33,628 bases of DNA from a bacterium (GTDB lineage: Bacteria > CLD3 > SB21): assembly GCA_019695335.1 (NCBI GenBank), contig JAIBAF010000039.1:1-33628 (forward strand), written 5' to 3'. A program made the translations under genes and the position numbers. This document shows positions 27,672-32,521 of this stretch, in pieces. Position 1 is the stretch's first letter, and every line of letters begins with the position of its first letter. The notes beneath the pieces are model-generated. The model saw nothing but the letters and a program-made list of their open reading frames with translations, did no database searches and had not been told where the DNA came from.

Positions 27672-28751
27672 TCATCTACGAAGCATAAAAGCTTTCTCAC
27701 TAAATTTTTGACCATTGACCAAAATCGTAATGGTGTGCATACCAGGATAATGCTTTCGGGTGGTAAGATCGCGGAAGGAATGTTTTTTATGAAAGGTCGT
27801 AACGGAATTGCCTGAAAATTCACGTTCAGCAATCATGAAAACTTTTTTAGTATGCTTGCCGCGGGATTTCATAAAACTGATTGTGTACTCCACACGCAGT
27901 TTAACAGATTTTTTTGTCAACAATTGAAATGAAAAAATACCATATTTACCGATTCGCAGTGATTTCGGTTTCCATTGAAAAGAACTTAAGCTCACCCCGT
28001 TGGTAGAGTCAAATCCGAAAAACTTCAACGTGCTTTCGTCACTGCGTTTCAGCAAAGTTCGGCAAGCATGCCTGACGATCCAATCGGTTTCAGGTTTTTT
28101 GCCATACCATTTTTTGGCTACTTCTAAAACCAGTGCAGGATGATCTTTGGCGATATCGTTCAGGTTATTCGCCACGCTTCGGCGCACATATTCCGACGGA
28201 TCGGCTTTTAGCTGTTCGATTACCGGCAAAATCGGTATGGGATTTTTTTTGAATTCCGGCAACGCCATTGCCCACGGAAGCCGTGGACGGCACCCTTCAC
28301 TGGCTAATCGTCGTACATGGTGGTTTTCATGGTGCGCCCATGTTTCCATCGTACGCATAATACGATCGCCATAACGAAGAATAAATGGCCTTATCGCAAA
28401 TTCCGAACTTGAAAATTGAGTGAAATATTCAAGTGCAGGAACCGATGTTTCCGGATCGTCCAGACCAGCCACCTCCACATAATCCGGAAAGAACATGGCA
28501 TGAAATCCATTAAACTGAGGCGCAATTTTTTTAAGGATCGCCAGCGCTCGCTGGTAATTTTCAGGTAAATGACACTGCAGTGCCAGCGTTATATGCCGCA
28601 ATCGCGATTTCAATTCGAGCTCACTCCATGCGTCATCAAAAATATTTTGAATGAATAACTTACGGTCGAATGCCGGATAAATTTTTTTAATACACTCAGC
28701 GAGCTTATTTATATAGGTACGGTTGTATATGTTTTTTAATTGATCCGGCAT
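27672..28751 (-). CDS. alkC: AlkC-type DNA alkylation repair glycosylase with C-terminal Ig-like domain
   Basis: HEAT-like-repeat DNA glycosylase that removes cationic alkylated bases such as 3-methyladenine without base flipping. From the ATG at 28751 it has 359 residues. The N-terminal helical-repeat part runs to about residue 250 and includes FHAMFFPDYVEV and HHVRRLASEGCRPRLPWA, which are strongly family-like. Residues about 260-359 form a beta-rich region (KHSFRDLTTRKHYPGMH) that matches the Ig-like domain of AlkC, absent from AlkD. An alternative TTG at 28772, placed only 3 bases after GGGAGGG, would add seven residues. The ATG start gives the usual family N-terminus (MPDQLKNIYN). It is the last gene of the accessory block; its stop overlaps a small 5-base hairpin. 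Confidence 0.87.
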   Translation of the reverse strand: MPDQLKNIYNRTYINKLAECIKKIYPAFDRKLFIQNIFDDAWSELELKSRLRHITLALQCHLPENYQRALAILKKIAPQFNGFHAMFFPDYVEVAGLDDPETSVPALEYFTQFSSSEFAIRPFILRYGDRIMRTMETWAHHENHHVRRLASEGCRPRLPWAMALPEFKKNPIPILPVIEQLKADPSEYVRRSVANNLNDIAKDHPALVLEVAKKWYGKKPETDWIVRHACRTLLKRSDESTLKFFGFDSTNGVSLSSFQWKPKSLRIGKYGIFSFQLLTKKSVKLRVEYTISFMKSRGKHTKKVFMIAEREFSGNSVTTFHKKHSFRDLTTRKHYPGMHTITILVNGQKFSEKAFMLRR

Positions 28752-28802
28752 GATGGCATTTTTTAAATTCAAAACCCTCCCGGGTTCGAGTGATTACGAT
28801 AG

Positions 28803-29180
28803 TTATTTGTACGAATGCAAACCGACGGTATTGCCTTCCGGGTCTGAGATCAGTGCAATAAATCCGTTAGGCGGGATGGCCATACGAGGCATGACTATTT
28901 TTCCGCCCGCCTTTTCTGCACGAGCGATAAAACCATCCAGGTCGCCTTCGGCGTTTAAATAGGCAACCGTTCCATTGGACGAAGCTTTCATATTCGGGGA
29001 ACAAACAATCGACCCTCCAACTCCGCCGTTATCTTTATCGAAAGGAAAAATTCCAATTTTCATTCCGCCGACATCTTCGGTTTCTACTATTGACGTACCT
29101 AAAATCGTTTCGTAGAATTTTTTCGCGTGTTCGAAATCTTCAACATAAATTTCAAACCAGTTTACAGCGTTCTTTTTCAT
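28803..29180 (-). CDS. VOC (glyoxalase/bleomycin-resistance fold) family protein
   Basis: Small cytoplasmic protein of the vicinal oxygen chelate superfamily; the substrate is unknown. From the ATG at 29180 it has 125 residues with the paired beta-alpha-beta-beta-beta modules: NWFEIYVEDFEHAKKFYETI at the start and FIALISDPEGNTVGLHS at the end. The classical first-module metal His is replaced in the NWFEIYV strand, whereas the C-terminal Glu/His region is kept, so metal binding is uncertain. AGGAG sits 6 bases before this ATG; an in-frame start 18 bases upstream is less likely. It starts 19 bases after the lipoprotein gene and is probably co-transcribed with it. Confidence 0.82.
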   Translation of the reverse strand: MKKNAVNWFEIYVEDFEHAKKFYETILGTSIVETEDVGGMKIGIFPFDKDNGGVGGSIVCSPNMKASSNGTVAYLNAEGDLDGFIARAEKAGGKIVMPRMAIPPNGFIALISDPEGNTVGLHSYK

Positions 29181-29199
29181 GCTTTCTCCTTTTTGCATT

Positions 29200-29556
29200 T
29201 TAATAATTCTTCAAATGTCCGAAATAAATATCGCTTTCGATTGCATTCATCAATCGTGTACACGAATCTGTTTTGTGGAAATCATCAAAGGCCTTTTGTG
29301 CGTGTTCTTTCGATCTCCATCTGAGGATATCAACAAACACCCTTGAGGTATCGTCGGTGCGCAACGATTGCATTGAAATAAATCCGTCATATCGCCGAAG
29401 TTGTTCACGAATTTCCTTCATCAATTCAGGCATTTGACCGACATTTTCAGTTTTTACGCGTGTGACGGCCACTTCAATGACTTCTTCACTGATGGTTTCC
29501 GTCGGACGGCAGCTTATCATTCCAATAAAAAACAACAAACTCAAAAAACGTTTCAT
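29200..29556 (-). CDS. Lipoprotein with an ABM/stress-responsive dimeric alpha-beta barrel domain
   Basis: The 118-residue product starts with a short hydrophobic signal (MKRFLSLLFFIGMIS) followed by Cys16, a plausible lipobox (M-I-S-C, slightly off the Leu consensus). The remaining roughly 90 residues form a ferredoxin-like alpha-beta unit (VAVTRVKTENVGQMPELMKE, then VFVDILRWRSKEHAQKAFDDF) typical of antibiotic biosynthesis monooxygenase-like domains, which normally dimerise. Such domains are usually cytoplasmic, so an exported lipid-anchored form is unusual. GGGAG precedes the ATG. A TGACA-N6-TGTCA palindrome lies 62 bases upstream. Its function is unknown. Confidence 0.72.
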   Translation of the reverse strand: MKRFLSLLFFIGMISCRPTETISEEVIEVAVTRVKTENVGQMPELMKEIREQLRRYDGFISMQSLRTDDTSRVFVDILRWRSKEHAQKAFDDFHKTDSCTRLMNAIESDIYFGHLKNY

Positions 29557-29610
29557 GAAGACTCCCTAGTTGGTTATACATTATGTTCTATATAAGATAA
29601 TCAATGGAAG

Positions 29611-29626
29611 TGACATCCTTATGTCA
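29611..29626. promoter_or_regulatory. Palindrome TGACA-N6-TGTCA upstream of the lipoprotein gene (site A)
   Basis: Perfect 5-base inverted repeat with spacer TCCTTA, embedded in TGGAAGTGACA...TGTCAG (29605-29627). It shares the 11-base left part and 6-base right part with site B, while the spacer differs. It overlaps the last codon and stop of the TfoX-domain gene. Confidence 0.55.
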
Positions 29627-29887
29627 GGAACGTAACGACCGCTGAACTTCTTTTTTCAATTTGGCTTTCACTTCCTGTGAAAGCTCAAGCCAGTTGATAT
29701 TCCGGATAATTGCTTCGATCCCATACAATGCGTTGAGTGTAACATTGTTGCCAAAGCGCTCTTTCAAACGCAGATAGATCTCTACCGAACCGAGAGACTC
29801 GATATCCTCACGGGTATGTACGCCAATTGTGTGCAACCTTCCGGCTGTCACAGGACCAATCAGTTTAATCAATGGATCGGGATTCAT
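29624..29887 (-). CDS. Stand-alone TfoX C-terminal domain protein
   Basis: The 87-residue protein corresponds only to the C-terminal domain of TfoX/Sxy competence regulators: LIKLIGPVTAGRLHTIGVHTREDIESLGSVEIYLRLKERF, then LNALYGIEAIIRNINWLELS. The fold is a helix-hairpin-helix-like bundle. The N-terminal TfoX domain is absent, and nothing in the upstream gap encodes it. Free-standing TfoX_C proteins are common and their role is unclear, so I do not infer competence control. The start codon lies inside a 6-base inverted repeat and overlaps the stop of a five-codon upstream frame. There is no clear ribosome binding site. A TGACA-N6-TGTCA palindrome is 40 bases upstream. Confidence 0.85.
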   Translation of the reverse strand: MNPDPLIKLIGPVTAGRLHTIGVHTREDIESLGSVEIYLRLKERFGNNVTLNALYGIEAIIRNINWLELSQEVKAKLKKEVQRSLRS

Positions 29888-29901
29888 GACTTTTTAGTCA
29901 T
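29886..29901 (-). other. Hairpin and mini-frame covering the TfoX-domain start codon
   Basis: The arms ATGACT and AGTCAT pair around a 4-base loop on the transcript and bury the start codon. The same bases contain a five-codon frame (Met-Thr-Lys-Lys-Ser) whose TGA overlaps the TfoX-domain ATG. Either could couple or restrain translation. The arms are short, so chance is possible. Confidence 0.3.
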
Positions 29902-29919
29902 CAATATAACGGCTGGAAG

Positions 29920-29935
29920 TGACAACGTTGTGTCA
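29920..29935. promoter_or_regulatory. Palindrome TGACA-N6-TGTCA upstream of the TfoX-domain gene (site B)
   Basis: Perfect 5-base inverted repeat with spacer ACGTTG, inside TGGAAGTGACA...TGTCAG (29914-29936). The flanks are identical to site A. The centre is 40 bases before the start codon, a position where a repressor or activator could act on the promoter. Confidence 0.55.
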
Positions 29936-29971
29936 GCAGAAAAAATAGGAAGGGGTAACTGGCAGATAAAA

Positions 29972-29994
29972 CAAAAGGCGCTTAAGAAGCGCCT
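29972..29994 (-). terminator. Intrinsic terminator overlapping the 3' end of the ankyrin gene
   Basis: An 8-base perfect stem (AGGCGCTT / AAGCGCCT, 29976-29983 and 29987-29994) with a 3-base loop is followed on the minus strand by TTTTGTTTT. The last codons and the TAA stop of the ankyrin gene lie inside the hairpin, so the terminator is partly coding. Confidence 0.85.
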
Positions 29995-30470
29995 AATGAT
30001 TGAAGATATTCCAAAACCGGTAACGCTTCGTCCCCGCCTTTTTTGGCGTGATGAATCAGCGAAAGACCATGCGGACCTTTGGCGTTGATCGTCTCCGGAA
30101 ATATGGTCAACATGGTTTTGACCAACTCCAGCTTACCCAACATTACGGCGGAAAAGATATCATACCGGGCGCCGGCCTTGATCAGGTATTCGGCAATATC
30201 GCGGCTGCCTACGTGCGAAGCGCCGCCTAATGCAGTTTCGTAATCACCGCTTCCCCAATCCCATGTCGCGTTCAATAAAGCCGGCAAATCGTTCAGCATT
30301 TCCTTGGTTTTATCAAAATTACCATGACCGACCGTAACAAATTCTTTTACTAATTCCGGTTTGATTTGGGGGCCTTTGTCCTTTTTTTGAAACACGGAAA
30401 AATCAGGCACAATCAAACCTGCGGCCGAAATCATGGACATTTTAAGAAATTTCTGACGCGATACTTTCAT
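29982..30470 (-). CDS. Ankyrin-repeat protein with a Tat-like but RR-less export signal
   Basis: From the ATG at 30470 the protein has 162 residues. The N-terminus VSRQKFLKMSMISAAGL has the layout of a twin-arginine signal (S-R-R-x-F-L-K plus hydrophobic segment), but the second Arg is Gln. The mature part contains two to three ankyrin-type repeats (ETALGGASHVGSRDIAEYLI, FSAVMLGKLELVKTML, GLSLIHHAKKGGDEALPVL), which would bind a protein partner. AAGGAG lies 7 bases before this ATG; a longer frame to 30521 is unsupported. The gene has a near-palindromic TGACA-N6-TGTCA relative upstream and its own terminator downstream, so it is transcribed alone. The partner and role are unknown. Confidence 0.8.
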   Translation of the reverse strand: MKVSRQKFLKMSMISAAGLIVPDFSVFQKKDKGPQIKPELVKEFVTVGHGNFDKTKEMLNDLPALLNATWDWGSGDYETALGGASHVGSRDIAEYLIKAGARYDIFSAVMLGKLELVKTMLTIFPETINAKGPHGLSLIHHAKKGGDEALPVLEYLQSLGAS

Positions 30471-30504
30471 AACCACGCTCCTTTTTTTCGTCAAATTAAC
30501 GTGA

Positions 30505-30520
30505 TTACAGACCAATGTCA
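30505..30520. promoter_or_regulatory. Imperfect palindrome TTACA-N6-TGTCA upstream of the ankyrin gene (site C)
   Basis: Same spacing as sites A and B with one mismatch in the left arm (TTACA instead of TGACA) and spacer GACCAA. The TGGAAG flank is not conserved. The centre is 42 bases before the ankyrin start codon, nearly the same distance as site B from its gene. Confidence 0.35.
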
Positions 30521-30577: not shown

Positions 30578-31339
30578 TCAGAGTTCACCGAAAATGCGTT
30601 TCGCCCGATCCTTATAACTGCGACTGAGTTTGAGTCGGGCTCCATTCGAGAGAAAAATGAAATATTCACCGTTAAAATGCGGTTTCAATTCTTTGATTCG
30701 CTCAATATTGACAATCGTAGAACGGTGAATACGTACAAATTTGGATGTATCGAGCTGTTCTTCCAGTCTTGTAAGCGTCTGATGCAAAAGATGTTTCTGT
30801 CGGCCGCAATGCAACGTAACGTAGCTGCCTGAGGCCTCGACCCAGTCGATCTCATCGGTTTTGACAAAATAAATCCGTCCGGATTCTTTGATCACAAGAC
30901 GTTCCAAAGCAGCCGGATGTTTATCCGTTGTTTGCAACAGCGATTCGAGTTTTTGTTCGATCACAGATGATTGTTGCCTAACCTGCTTTCGTACACGCTC
31001 GAGCGTGTCACGAAAACGCGACGGATCGAAAGGCTTTAACAAATAATCGAGCGCATGCGCTTCGAATGCACGCAGCGCATATTGGTCGAACGCAGTAACA
31101 AATACAGTAACCGGCATACGCGATACGCCCACCGTTTGAATGACTCCAAATCCGTCAAGATCGGGCATACGAATATCGAGGAACAAAACATCCGGTTTTT
31201 TTTCAAGGATAGCCGTGACTGTTTCAAAACCGTTGGAACATTCGGCAACAATGTCGACATCGGGTTCAGCCTGCAGAAGCAACCGAAGTACGTCCAGAGC
31301 CAGCGGCTCATCATCCGATAGGATCGTTCGAAGTTTCAT
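30578..31339 (-). CDS. LytTR-family response regulator
   Basis: DNA-binding response regulator of the LytR/AlgR type. From the ATG at 31339 it has 253 residues. The REC domain has acidic residues in SDDEP (8-12), phospho-Asp55 in VLFLDIRMPD and Lys102 in LLKPF. A linker and a LytTR domain (about 150-250) follow, with the family pattern (KFVRIHRSTIVNIERIKEL, then LSNGARLKLSRSYKD). The start codon lies 29 bases inside the end of the upstream kinase gene, so the two are translationally coupled and form a cognate pair. No ribosome binding site is seen, which fits coupling. The targets are unknown. Confidence 0.93.
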   Translation of the reverse strand: MKLRTILSDDEPLALDVLRLLLQAEPDVDIVAECSNGFETVTAILEKKPDVLFLDIRMPDLDGFGVIQTVGVSRMPVTVFVTAFDQYALRAFEAHALDYLLKPFDPSRFRDTLERVRKQVRQQSSVIEQKLESLLQTTDKHPAALERLVIKESGRIYFVKTDEIDWVEASGSYVTLHCGRQKHLLHQTLTRLEEQLDTSKFVRIHRSTIVNIERIKELKPHFNGEYFIFLSNGARLKLSRSYKDRAKRIFGEL

Positions 31340-32381
31340 AATGTAAAGGTAATTGAATGGTTGCTGAAACGCCACGCGGGCGGTTTTGGAGAATTAGACG
31401 CGCACGATCACCGTAAAGTTGCCGCAAACGTTTACGCGTATTCGTCAGGCCAATGCCTTCATTAATCATATCAGGCAATCCCGGGCCATCGTCGATAATA
31501 ACAACAATCAAATTTTCACCGGAGCATCGCGATTGAATGACCAATTCACCGGAATCGGAAGTTGCGGCCAACGCATGTTCCAGCGCATTTTCGACCAGCG
31601 GTTGCAAAATCCAATTGGGCACGAGCGCATCCAGCGACGCTGAGTCGATGTCGCGCGTTATGCGAAGGCGATTGGCAAAACGAATACTTTGAATGTCGAG
31701 GTAAAGATTGATGAATTCCAATTCTTTTTTCAGTGGAATTTCATTGGTTTGAGGCGATTCAAGAGTCAACCGAAGTAAATCGCTCAGCCGTGTCAGCATT
31801 TGAATCGCTGCATCATTTTCTTTTTTCAATACGAGTGCGGAAATTGCGTGATGGGTATTAAACAAAAAATGCGGCTGCAACTGCATACGGAGCGCCAACC
31901 ATTGCGCTCTAGCTAGCGCATTTTCGAGGTCCGCTTTCTGAATATAATAATCGTACGCATGCGTAATACCGACAATGACCCAATAGATCAAAAGATTGAC
32001 ATGAAACTTGTACGTAAAAATTCCAAGAAAAGAAATCAACGGCGGCGAGGATTCGCTCGACCACGTTCGTACGACATAACTGACGGACACTTCGGCTACA
32101 AACACTACCAACGCAGCGACCAGTCCTGCGGCAAAATGCACCATCAGGCGCAGGGCCATTTTATCACGCTCGATCGGATAGCGTCTGGCCCAATTCATCA
32201 CCAACGGCGTTACAATCGCCCATACCAGCCAGCCGGCCGACCAAAGCAATAATCCTCCCCAATCGACGTTTTGATTTTTTAATACGTTGGATAAAACGTA
32301 TTGTCCGGTATTGATTACAGCCATGAGCAACCAAAAACCTGACAGAACAAAATAAAAACGGCGTCTGAAATTTTTTATCAT
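31311..32381 (-). CDS. LytS/YehU-type membrane sensor histidine kinase
   Basis: Inner-membrane sensor kinase of the His_kinase (LytS-like) family, partner of the downstream LytTR regulator. From the ATG at 32381 it has 356 residues. Four transmembrane helices (about 8-28, 42-62, 79-103, 115-140) have short loops and no large extracytoplasmic domain, so the signal is probably sensed in the membrane. The phospho-His is His171 in LQPHFLFN. The ATPase domain has LVENALEHAL, DDGPGLP and GIGLTNTRKRLRQLYG. An in-frame extension to 32504 would run through a strong hairpin and looks non-coding. The ATG has no ribosome binding site. Confidence 0.9.
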   Translation of the reverse strand: MIKNFRRRFYFVLSGFWLLMAVINTGQYVLSNVLKNQNVDWGGLLLWSAGWLVWAIVTPLVMNWARRYPIERDKMALRLMVHFAAGLVAALVVFVAEVSVSYVVRTWSSESSPPLISFLGIFTYKFHVNLLIYWVIVGITHAYDYYIQKADLENALARAQWLALRMQLQPHFLFNTHHAISALVLKKENDAAIQMLTRLSDLLRLTLESPQTNEIPLKKELEFINLYLDIQSIRFANRLRITRDIDSASLDALVPNWILQPLVENALEHALAATSDSGELVIQSRCSGENLIVVIIDDGPGLPDMINEGIGLTNTRKRLRQLYGDRARLILQNRPRGVSATIQLPLHYETSNDPIG

Positions 32382-32396
32382 AAATATTAATAATAA

Positions 32397-32440
32397 ACAA
32401 CGGCTCCAGCGAAAACAAAAACTATTCGCCGAGCCGTTGT
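32397..32440 (-). promoter_or_regulatory. Strong hairpin 16 bases upstream of the LytS-type kinase start
   Basis: Perfect 10-base arms ACAACGGCTC and GAGCCGTTGT, extended inward by a second 5-pair stem (GCGAA / TTCGC), enclose an 11-base loop. On the minus strand the hairpin is followed by a T/A-rich stretch leading straight into the start codon. It could be the terminator of the M28 peptidase gene, or a 5'-leader hairpin controlling the kinase. Its closeness to the start codon favours a regulatory role. Confidence 0.6.
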
Positions 32441-32465
32441 AAAAAATACGTGAAATGTTAATTAT

Positions 32466-32491
32466 GTTCTCTGAACGAAGCCGAAGAGAAC
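32466..32491. repeat. REP-like inverted repeat, copy 1
   Basis: The arms GTTCTCT and AGAGAAC flank GAACGAAGCCGA. The core CTGAACGAAGCCGAAG resembles short palindromic sequences (CTGAGCG-AG-CGAAG type) that I have seen scattered in intergenic DNA of FCB and other genomes. A second, oppositely oriented copy lies 30 bases away. Confidence 0.5.
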
Positions 32492-32521
32492 AGATTAAGA
32501 ACAATAATCAGAACGATGGCT

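Follow-up and report, generated by a model that had tools for sequence, protein, structure and literature searches.

The window examined here, a stretch of 33,628 nucleotides of bacterial DNA, raises the question of why the same palindrome, TGACA-N6-TGTCA, should stand twice within a few hundred bases, in both cases with TGGAAG before it and G after it (sites 1 and 2, Table 1). A sequence-only reading had taken the pair, together with a one-mismatch form before an ankyrin-like gene, as possible binding sites of a dimeric regulator with an unrecognised regulon. Its sequences, coordinates and flanks proved accurate, as did its centre-to-start distances of 62, 40 and 42 bases, which are correct because all three downstream genes lie on the minus strand. 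We found that sites 1 and 2 are real promoter elements, and we believe that they are probably operators of YafY-type WYL regulators, which would most likely activate repair and detoxification genes in response to damage. The first TGA of site 1, read on the minus strand, also terminates the TfoX_C reading frame. A role as a terminator or other RNA structure was rejected, as the predicted folds are ordinary (z-scores of -1.8, 0.3 and 0.3) and no match was found in Rfam.

Table 1. Features of the window discussed in the text (positions are counted from the first letter of the window).
Feature	Position	Strand	Sequence	Context
Palindromic site 1	29611-29626	-	TGACATCCTTATGTCA; minus strand reads TGACATAAGGATGTCA	Upstream of the ABM-glyoxalase-AlkD-like gene cluster
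-10/-7-type element of site 1	29592-29599	-	TATCTTAT	Follows site 1 after 11 bp
Whole element 1 (palindrome plus TAnnTT)	29594-29626			0 mismatches
Palindromic site 2	29920-29935	-	TGACAACGTTGTGTCA; minus strand reads TGACACAACGTTGTCA	Promoter of the TfoX_C-domain gene
-10/-7-type element of site 2	29901-29908	-	TATATTGA	Follows site 2 after 11 bp
Whole element 2 (palindrome plus TAnnTT)	29903-29935			0 mismatches
Third palindrome, TTACA-N6-TGTCA	30505-30520	-	TTACAGACCAATGTCA	Before the ankyrin-like gene; chance half-match, no site
DNA-alkylation-repair AlkD-like HEAT protein (PF08713)	27672-28772	-		Third gene behind site 1
Glyoxalase/VOC protein (PF00903)	28803-29198	-		Second gene behind site 1
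ABM-like lipoprotein (PF03992)	29200-29556	-		First gene behind site 1
TfoX C-terminal-domain protein (PF04994)	29624-29887	-		Behind site 2
Ankyrin-like gene	29982-30470	-

The palindrome is enriched across the genome from which the window comes (G000; 3.76 Mb in 130 contigs), where 11 perfect copies were found versus one for the backwards control and about 3.6 expected from base composition (P ~1e-3). A genome of the same genus (G001) also holds 11 perfect sites, versus none for the control. When a -7 element was required 11 bp beyond the palindrome, with up to two mismatches allowed, the count was seven versus none for the control. Most one-mismatch sites fall within genes, so the idea of enlarging the regulon through them was dropped and the regulon was defined by near-perfect sites with a -7 element only.

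Alignment with G001 shows which bases are held. This genome keeps the order ankyrin, site, TfoX_C, site, ABM, glyoxalase, with both sites present and a TfoX_C ortholog that is 77% identical, and the arms of the two window sites are unchanged in it (10/10 each, 20/20 together), while the remaining intergenic stretches have diverged, with 29/54 (around site 1), 22/32 and 25/46 bases identical. The TGGAAG flank is not kept in G001 and is no part of the motif, and the spacer is neither free nor random, reading YAA-NGN on one strand in most sites. The third palindrome is counted as a chance match, since its right arm is lost in G001, where it reads TACGA, and no TAnnTT stands at +11; by chance alone the window should contain roughly one one-mismatch site of this kind. 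The proposal that a dimer binds these palindromes in a regulon not yet recognised holds for two of its three sites and is unsupported for the ankyrin-like gene, and the regulon is far larger than was then proposed, reaching through the phylum and beyond.

Oriented towards its gene, the element reads TGACAYAANGNTGTCA-N11-TAnnTTTG, in which a constant spacing separates the 16-bp palindrome from a Bacteroidetes-type -7 promoter element downstream of it. Among 31 sites from five genomes, each oriented towards its gene, TAnnTT lies exactly 11 bp past the palindrome in 24, and the best offset reached at most seven in 20,000 shuffles. TAnnTTTG is the -7 box of Bacteroidetes primary-sigma promoters, some of which show no recognisable -33 motif (PMC7366714). 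The TG that follows TAnnTT was recovered without being imposed in the 119 loci listed by the wide scan described below (T 0.76, G 0.65). The fixed spacing to the -7 box places the palindrome at about -39 to -24, and because it occupies the -33 position no TTTG is possible there. A site over the -35 region at fixed spacing from the -10 element is also the arrangement of PafBC- and DriD-type promoters, and it was this PafBC-like register, with the DriD-like shape of the element, that led to a search for WYL proteins. At the uvrB gene of G003 and the RDD gene of G000 no more than about 6 bp separate the -7 element from the start codon, so that the mRNAs may well be leaderless.

A scan of about 85,000 species, in which only TAnnTT was imposed beside the palindrome, gave at least 119 loci; judged by record titles, about 105 of the 119 listed (about 88%) belong to Bacteroidota, Balneolota, KSB1, Ignavibacteria and allied phyla. 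At 45 of these 119 listed loci the stretch around the site, up to 8 kb long, also contains a YafY-type WYL gene, and in most of the 45 the site begins -8 to +49 bp from the WYL stop codon, with six arranged divergently. At 40 listed loci a WYL gene lies within 200 bp of the site, versus a mean of 7.1 for random positions in the same loci. About two thirds of the listed loci have no WYL gene nearby, as is expected for a distributed regulon, which is not proof of one. Twenty Bacteroidota genomes taken from the scan contain 50 sites with at most one mismatch, and none in the backwards control; 19 of the 50 lie within 1.3 kb of one of their 52 WYL genes, where about 0.06 would be expected. These genomes were picked for having at least one site, so their 27 one-mismatch sites are the less biased part, and 11 of these lie near a WYL gene. 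In a Firmicute, [Clostridium] aerotolerans, the element precedes the YafY-type WYL gene itself, and autoregulation is possible there.

In the family to which the window belongs, the motif and the full-length YafY-type WYL gene occur together. This 317-aa regulator is found in G000, G001, G002, G003, G007 and G008. G004-G006 lack it, are also free of the motif and have only a second, divergent WYL group; G002 (85% complete) has the gene and no element. The protein of G000 (contig C89) carries HTH_11, WYL and WCX domains and a shorter form (contig C45) HTH_11 and WYL without WCX, so that the N-terminal winged HTH and WYL domain of WYL transcription factors, usually joined by WCX, are present. 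Sequence searches (8e-20 for PafBC) and fold searches gave PafBC and DriD as the closest solved relatives, and the basic residues of the WYL domain are conserved in the alignment. The structure model, with a mean pLDDT of 66.7 and low global TM-scores, was taken as support for the WYL assignment only. No adjacent pair of the pafB/pafC type was found in G000 or its relatives, where the WYL genes are single. There is no site before the full-length gene in G000, and only the short form adjoins one in that genome. Short forms of 226-230 aa without WCX, in which the element lies about -3 to +15 bp from the stop codon, are common to G000 (contig C45) and Flavobacteriia (three loci). The second, divergent WYL group occurs throughout the family (for example on G000:C6, G001:C345 and G004:C10), and in G000 and G001 its gene is divergent from ssb and close to recA.

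Probably, a YafY-type WYL regulator (winged HTH and WYL, with or without WCX) is bound at sites 1 and 2 as a homodimer, which would contact TGACA and TGTCA and straddle the -35/-33 region. The element sequence TGACATAAGGCTGTCA is the predicted target of such a protein, and the primary-sigma -7 box TAnnTTTG would be the only other element of these promoters. DNA damage would yield single-stranded DNA, which the WYL domains may bind, most likely as in PafBC and DriD, and the dimer may then recruit or adapt RNA polymerase at promoters that have no good -33 element. Alternatively, the element could be a WYL operator at which the protein represses, covering the -33 region until it is released by a ligand. 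Some WYL proteins, such as BrxR and CapW, are repressors; both are among the structural relatives of the regulator, and the palindrome does overlap the promoter. We nevertheless consider repression unlikely, as the position and spacing of the site equal those of the PafBC and DriD activator sites, and the two closest solved relatives are themselves activators. The exclusion of TTTG from -33 by the site itself also argues against it, though promoters of this group do not always show a -33 motif (PMC7366714).

If a WYL protein does activate from the element, the question is which genes it would serve. Those of the window had been described as otherwise unrelated, yet in other genomes ABM, glyoxalase, AlkD-like and TfoX_C genes are again grouped behind the element and are therefore no random set. 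AlkD-like homologs (E ~1e-100) lie behind the site in Allomuricauda, where the gene directly follows the element, in Flavivirga and other Flavobacteriaceae (two loci), where the order is WYL gene, element, then ABM and AlkD-like homologs, and in a member of the Melioribacteraceae, with the order element, VOC, TfoX_C, AlkD-like. Aquimarina (two loci) has ABM-like genes and weaker AlkD-like homologs in the same order as Flavivirga, and in Aquimarina, Flavivirga and others the first gene after the promoter is a weaker ABM homolog. Glyoxalase homologs directly follow the site at two loci, one of them in Roseivirga (L261; the other is L209), where ABM comes next, and other VOC genes lie behind it in G007 and G008. 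These two genomes, from another family of the class, have the element before recA, uvrA, uvrB and glyoxalase genes, and G003 has it before uvrB and before an ABM gene that has a DinB-family gene next in line. Pfam families downstream among the listed scan loci include DinB, RecA, UvrB, glyoxalase, OmdA, GyrI-like and abhydrolase. The targets in relatives thus include the DNA-repair genes recA, uvrA, uvrB, DinB-like and AlkD-like.

In G000 itself the set includes the ABM/glyoxalase/AlkD-like cluster, TfoX_C, a DUF1579 gene, an RDD gene, a HEAT gene and an HlyD gene, and the AlkD-like gene is the only clear repair gene among them. No site lies within 250 bp of recA in this genome, and the pattern searches likewise found none for uvrA or uvrB; here the regulon may therefore leave out the core repair genes. 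Proteins of about 100 aa with the motif LLGWxxLPxxL repeatedly follow the element in Balneolota and relatives (nine loci). Pairs of a LytTR response regulator and a histidine kinase adjoin element-bearing genes at two places in G000, at 30578-32504 of the window and on contig C8 before the HlyD gene.

The element before recA, uvrA and uvrB at first suggested an SOS box, bound by a canonical or non-canonical LexA-type repressor of the S24-peptidase kind. DinB-like targets would fit this as well, and non-canonical LexA proteins do exist in Bacteroidetes, where S24-peptidase repressors control an SOS-type response in the same superphylum (PMC8565304). However, canonical LexA (PF01726) is absent from the motif-bearing G000, G003, G007 and G008 and present in the motif-free G002, G004 and G005; the single weak PF01726 match in G001 is a different HTH-S24 protein. 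The S24 proteins of G007 and G008 are signal-peptidase-like only, with no S24 regulator among them, the published Bacteroidetes motifs (GGA-N5-TCC and CTAA-N5-TTAG) differ from this one, and the sites adjoin WYL genes, not S24 genes. LexA or another S24 protein was therefore rejected as the regulator, and we regard it as very improbable. In G000 (contig C118), G001 (C211) and G003 (C6), the gene immediately preceding an NAD-synthase-like gene encodes an S24 LexA-type cleavage domain of 137-138 aa without an HTH, although G000 and G003 have no canonical LexA. That the two sites are a copied intergenic segment, as the sequence-only reading had allowed, or a chance pair of palindromes with no regulatory meaning is scarcely credible, for in spite of their common TGGAAG flank and of there being only two good sites in the window, the footprint in G001, with arms kept and flanks diverged, and recurrence in unrelated genomes and through the phylum with fixed promoter spacing exclude it.

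Bacteroidota and their relatives have many WYL regulators, and in the open-licence literature we found no described WYL operator in these groups and no prior report of the element. The element provides a sequence handle with which the genes under WYL control can be predicted in each genome, and for lineages that have lost or never had canonical LexA it points to a damage response independent of that repressor. It likewise gives a stress or repair role to the poorly understood ABM, VOC, YdeI, GyrI-like, TfoX_C and AlkD-like genes. More broadly, homodimeric YafY-type WYL activators may run the inducible DNA-damage response, with recA, uvrA and uvrB in it, through one conserved promoter element, both in the present lineage without LexA and in parts of Bacteroidota, Balneolota and KSB1, a proposal that we find about as easy to believe as to doubt. 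If so, there would be a LexA-independent analogue of the SOS response over several phyla, with the alkylation-repair and detoxification genes as an accessory module.

Among known WYL systems, SiwR of mycobacteria is a homodimeric activator that controls DinB-like genes, is encoded next to these and glyoxalase-like genes and binds a palindrome between -35 and -10 (PMC10693628); its neighbours make the gene content found here fit a WYL activator. SiwR is, however, a local regulator of one operon with the half site GGA at -26, whereas the present element serves many genes in many phyla. The actinobacterial PafBC is a WYL-domain activator of DNA-repair genes including recA, and its RecA-NDp promoter reads tTGTCRgtg-8nt-TannnT (PMC5656591). 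In both systems TGTC stands 12 nt before the TA of the -10 element and there is no good -35. PafBC differs in being a heterodimer with a non-palindromic site, in contrast to the single YafY-type proteins, the palindrome TGACAYAANGNTGTCA and the Bacteroidetes -7 box found here. DriD of Caulobacter recognises ATACGAC-N7-GTCGTAT, which overlaps -35 and keeps a constant spacing to -10 (PMC12340889). It shares with the system proposed here a homodimeric wHTH-WYL-WCX activator and a palindrome over -35, while the half sites here are TGACA and TGTCA with one base more between them (GAC-N8-GTC), before another gene set and in another phylum.
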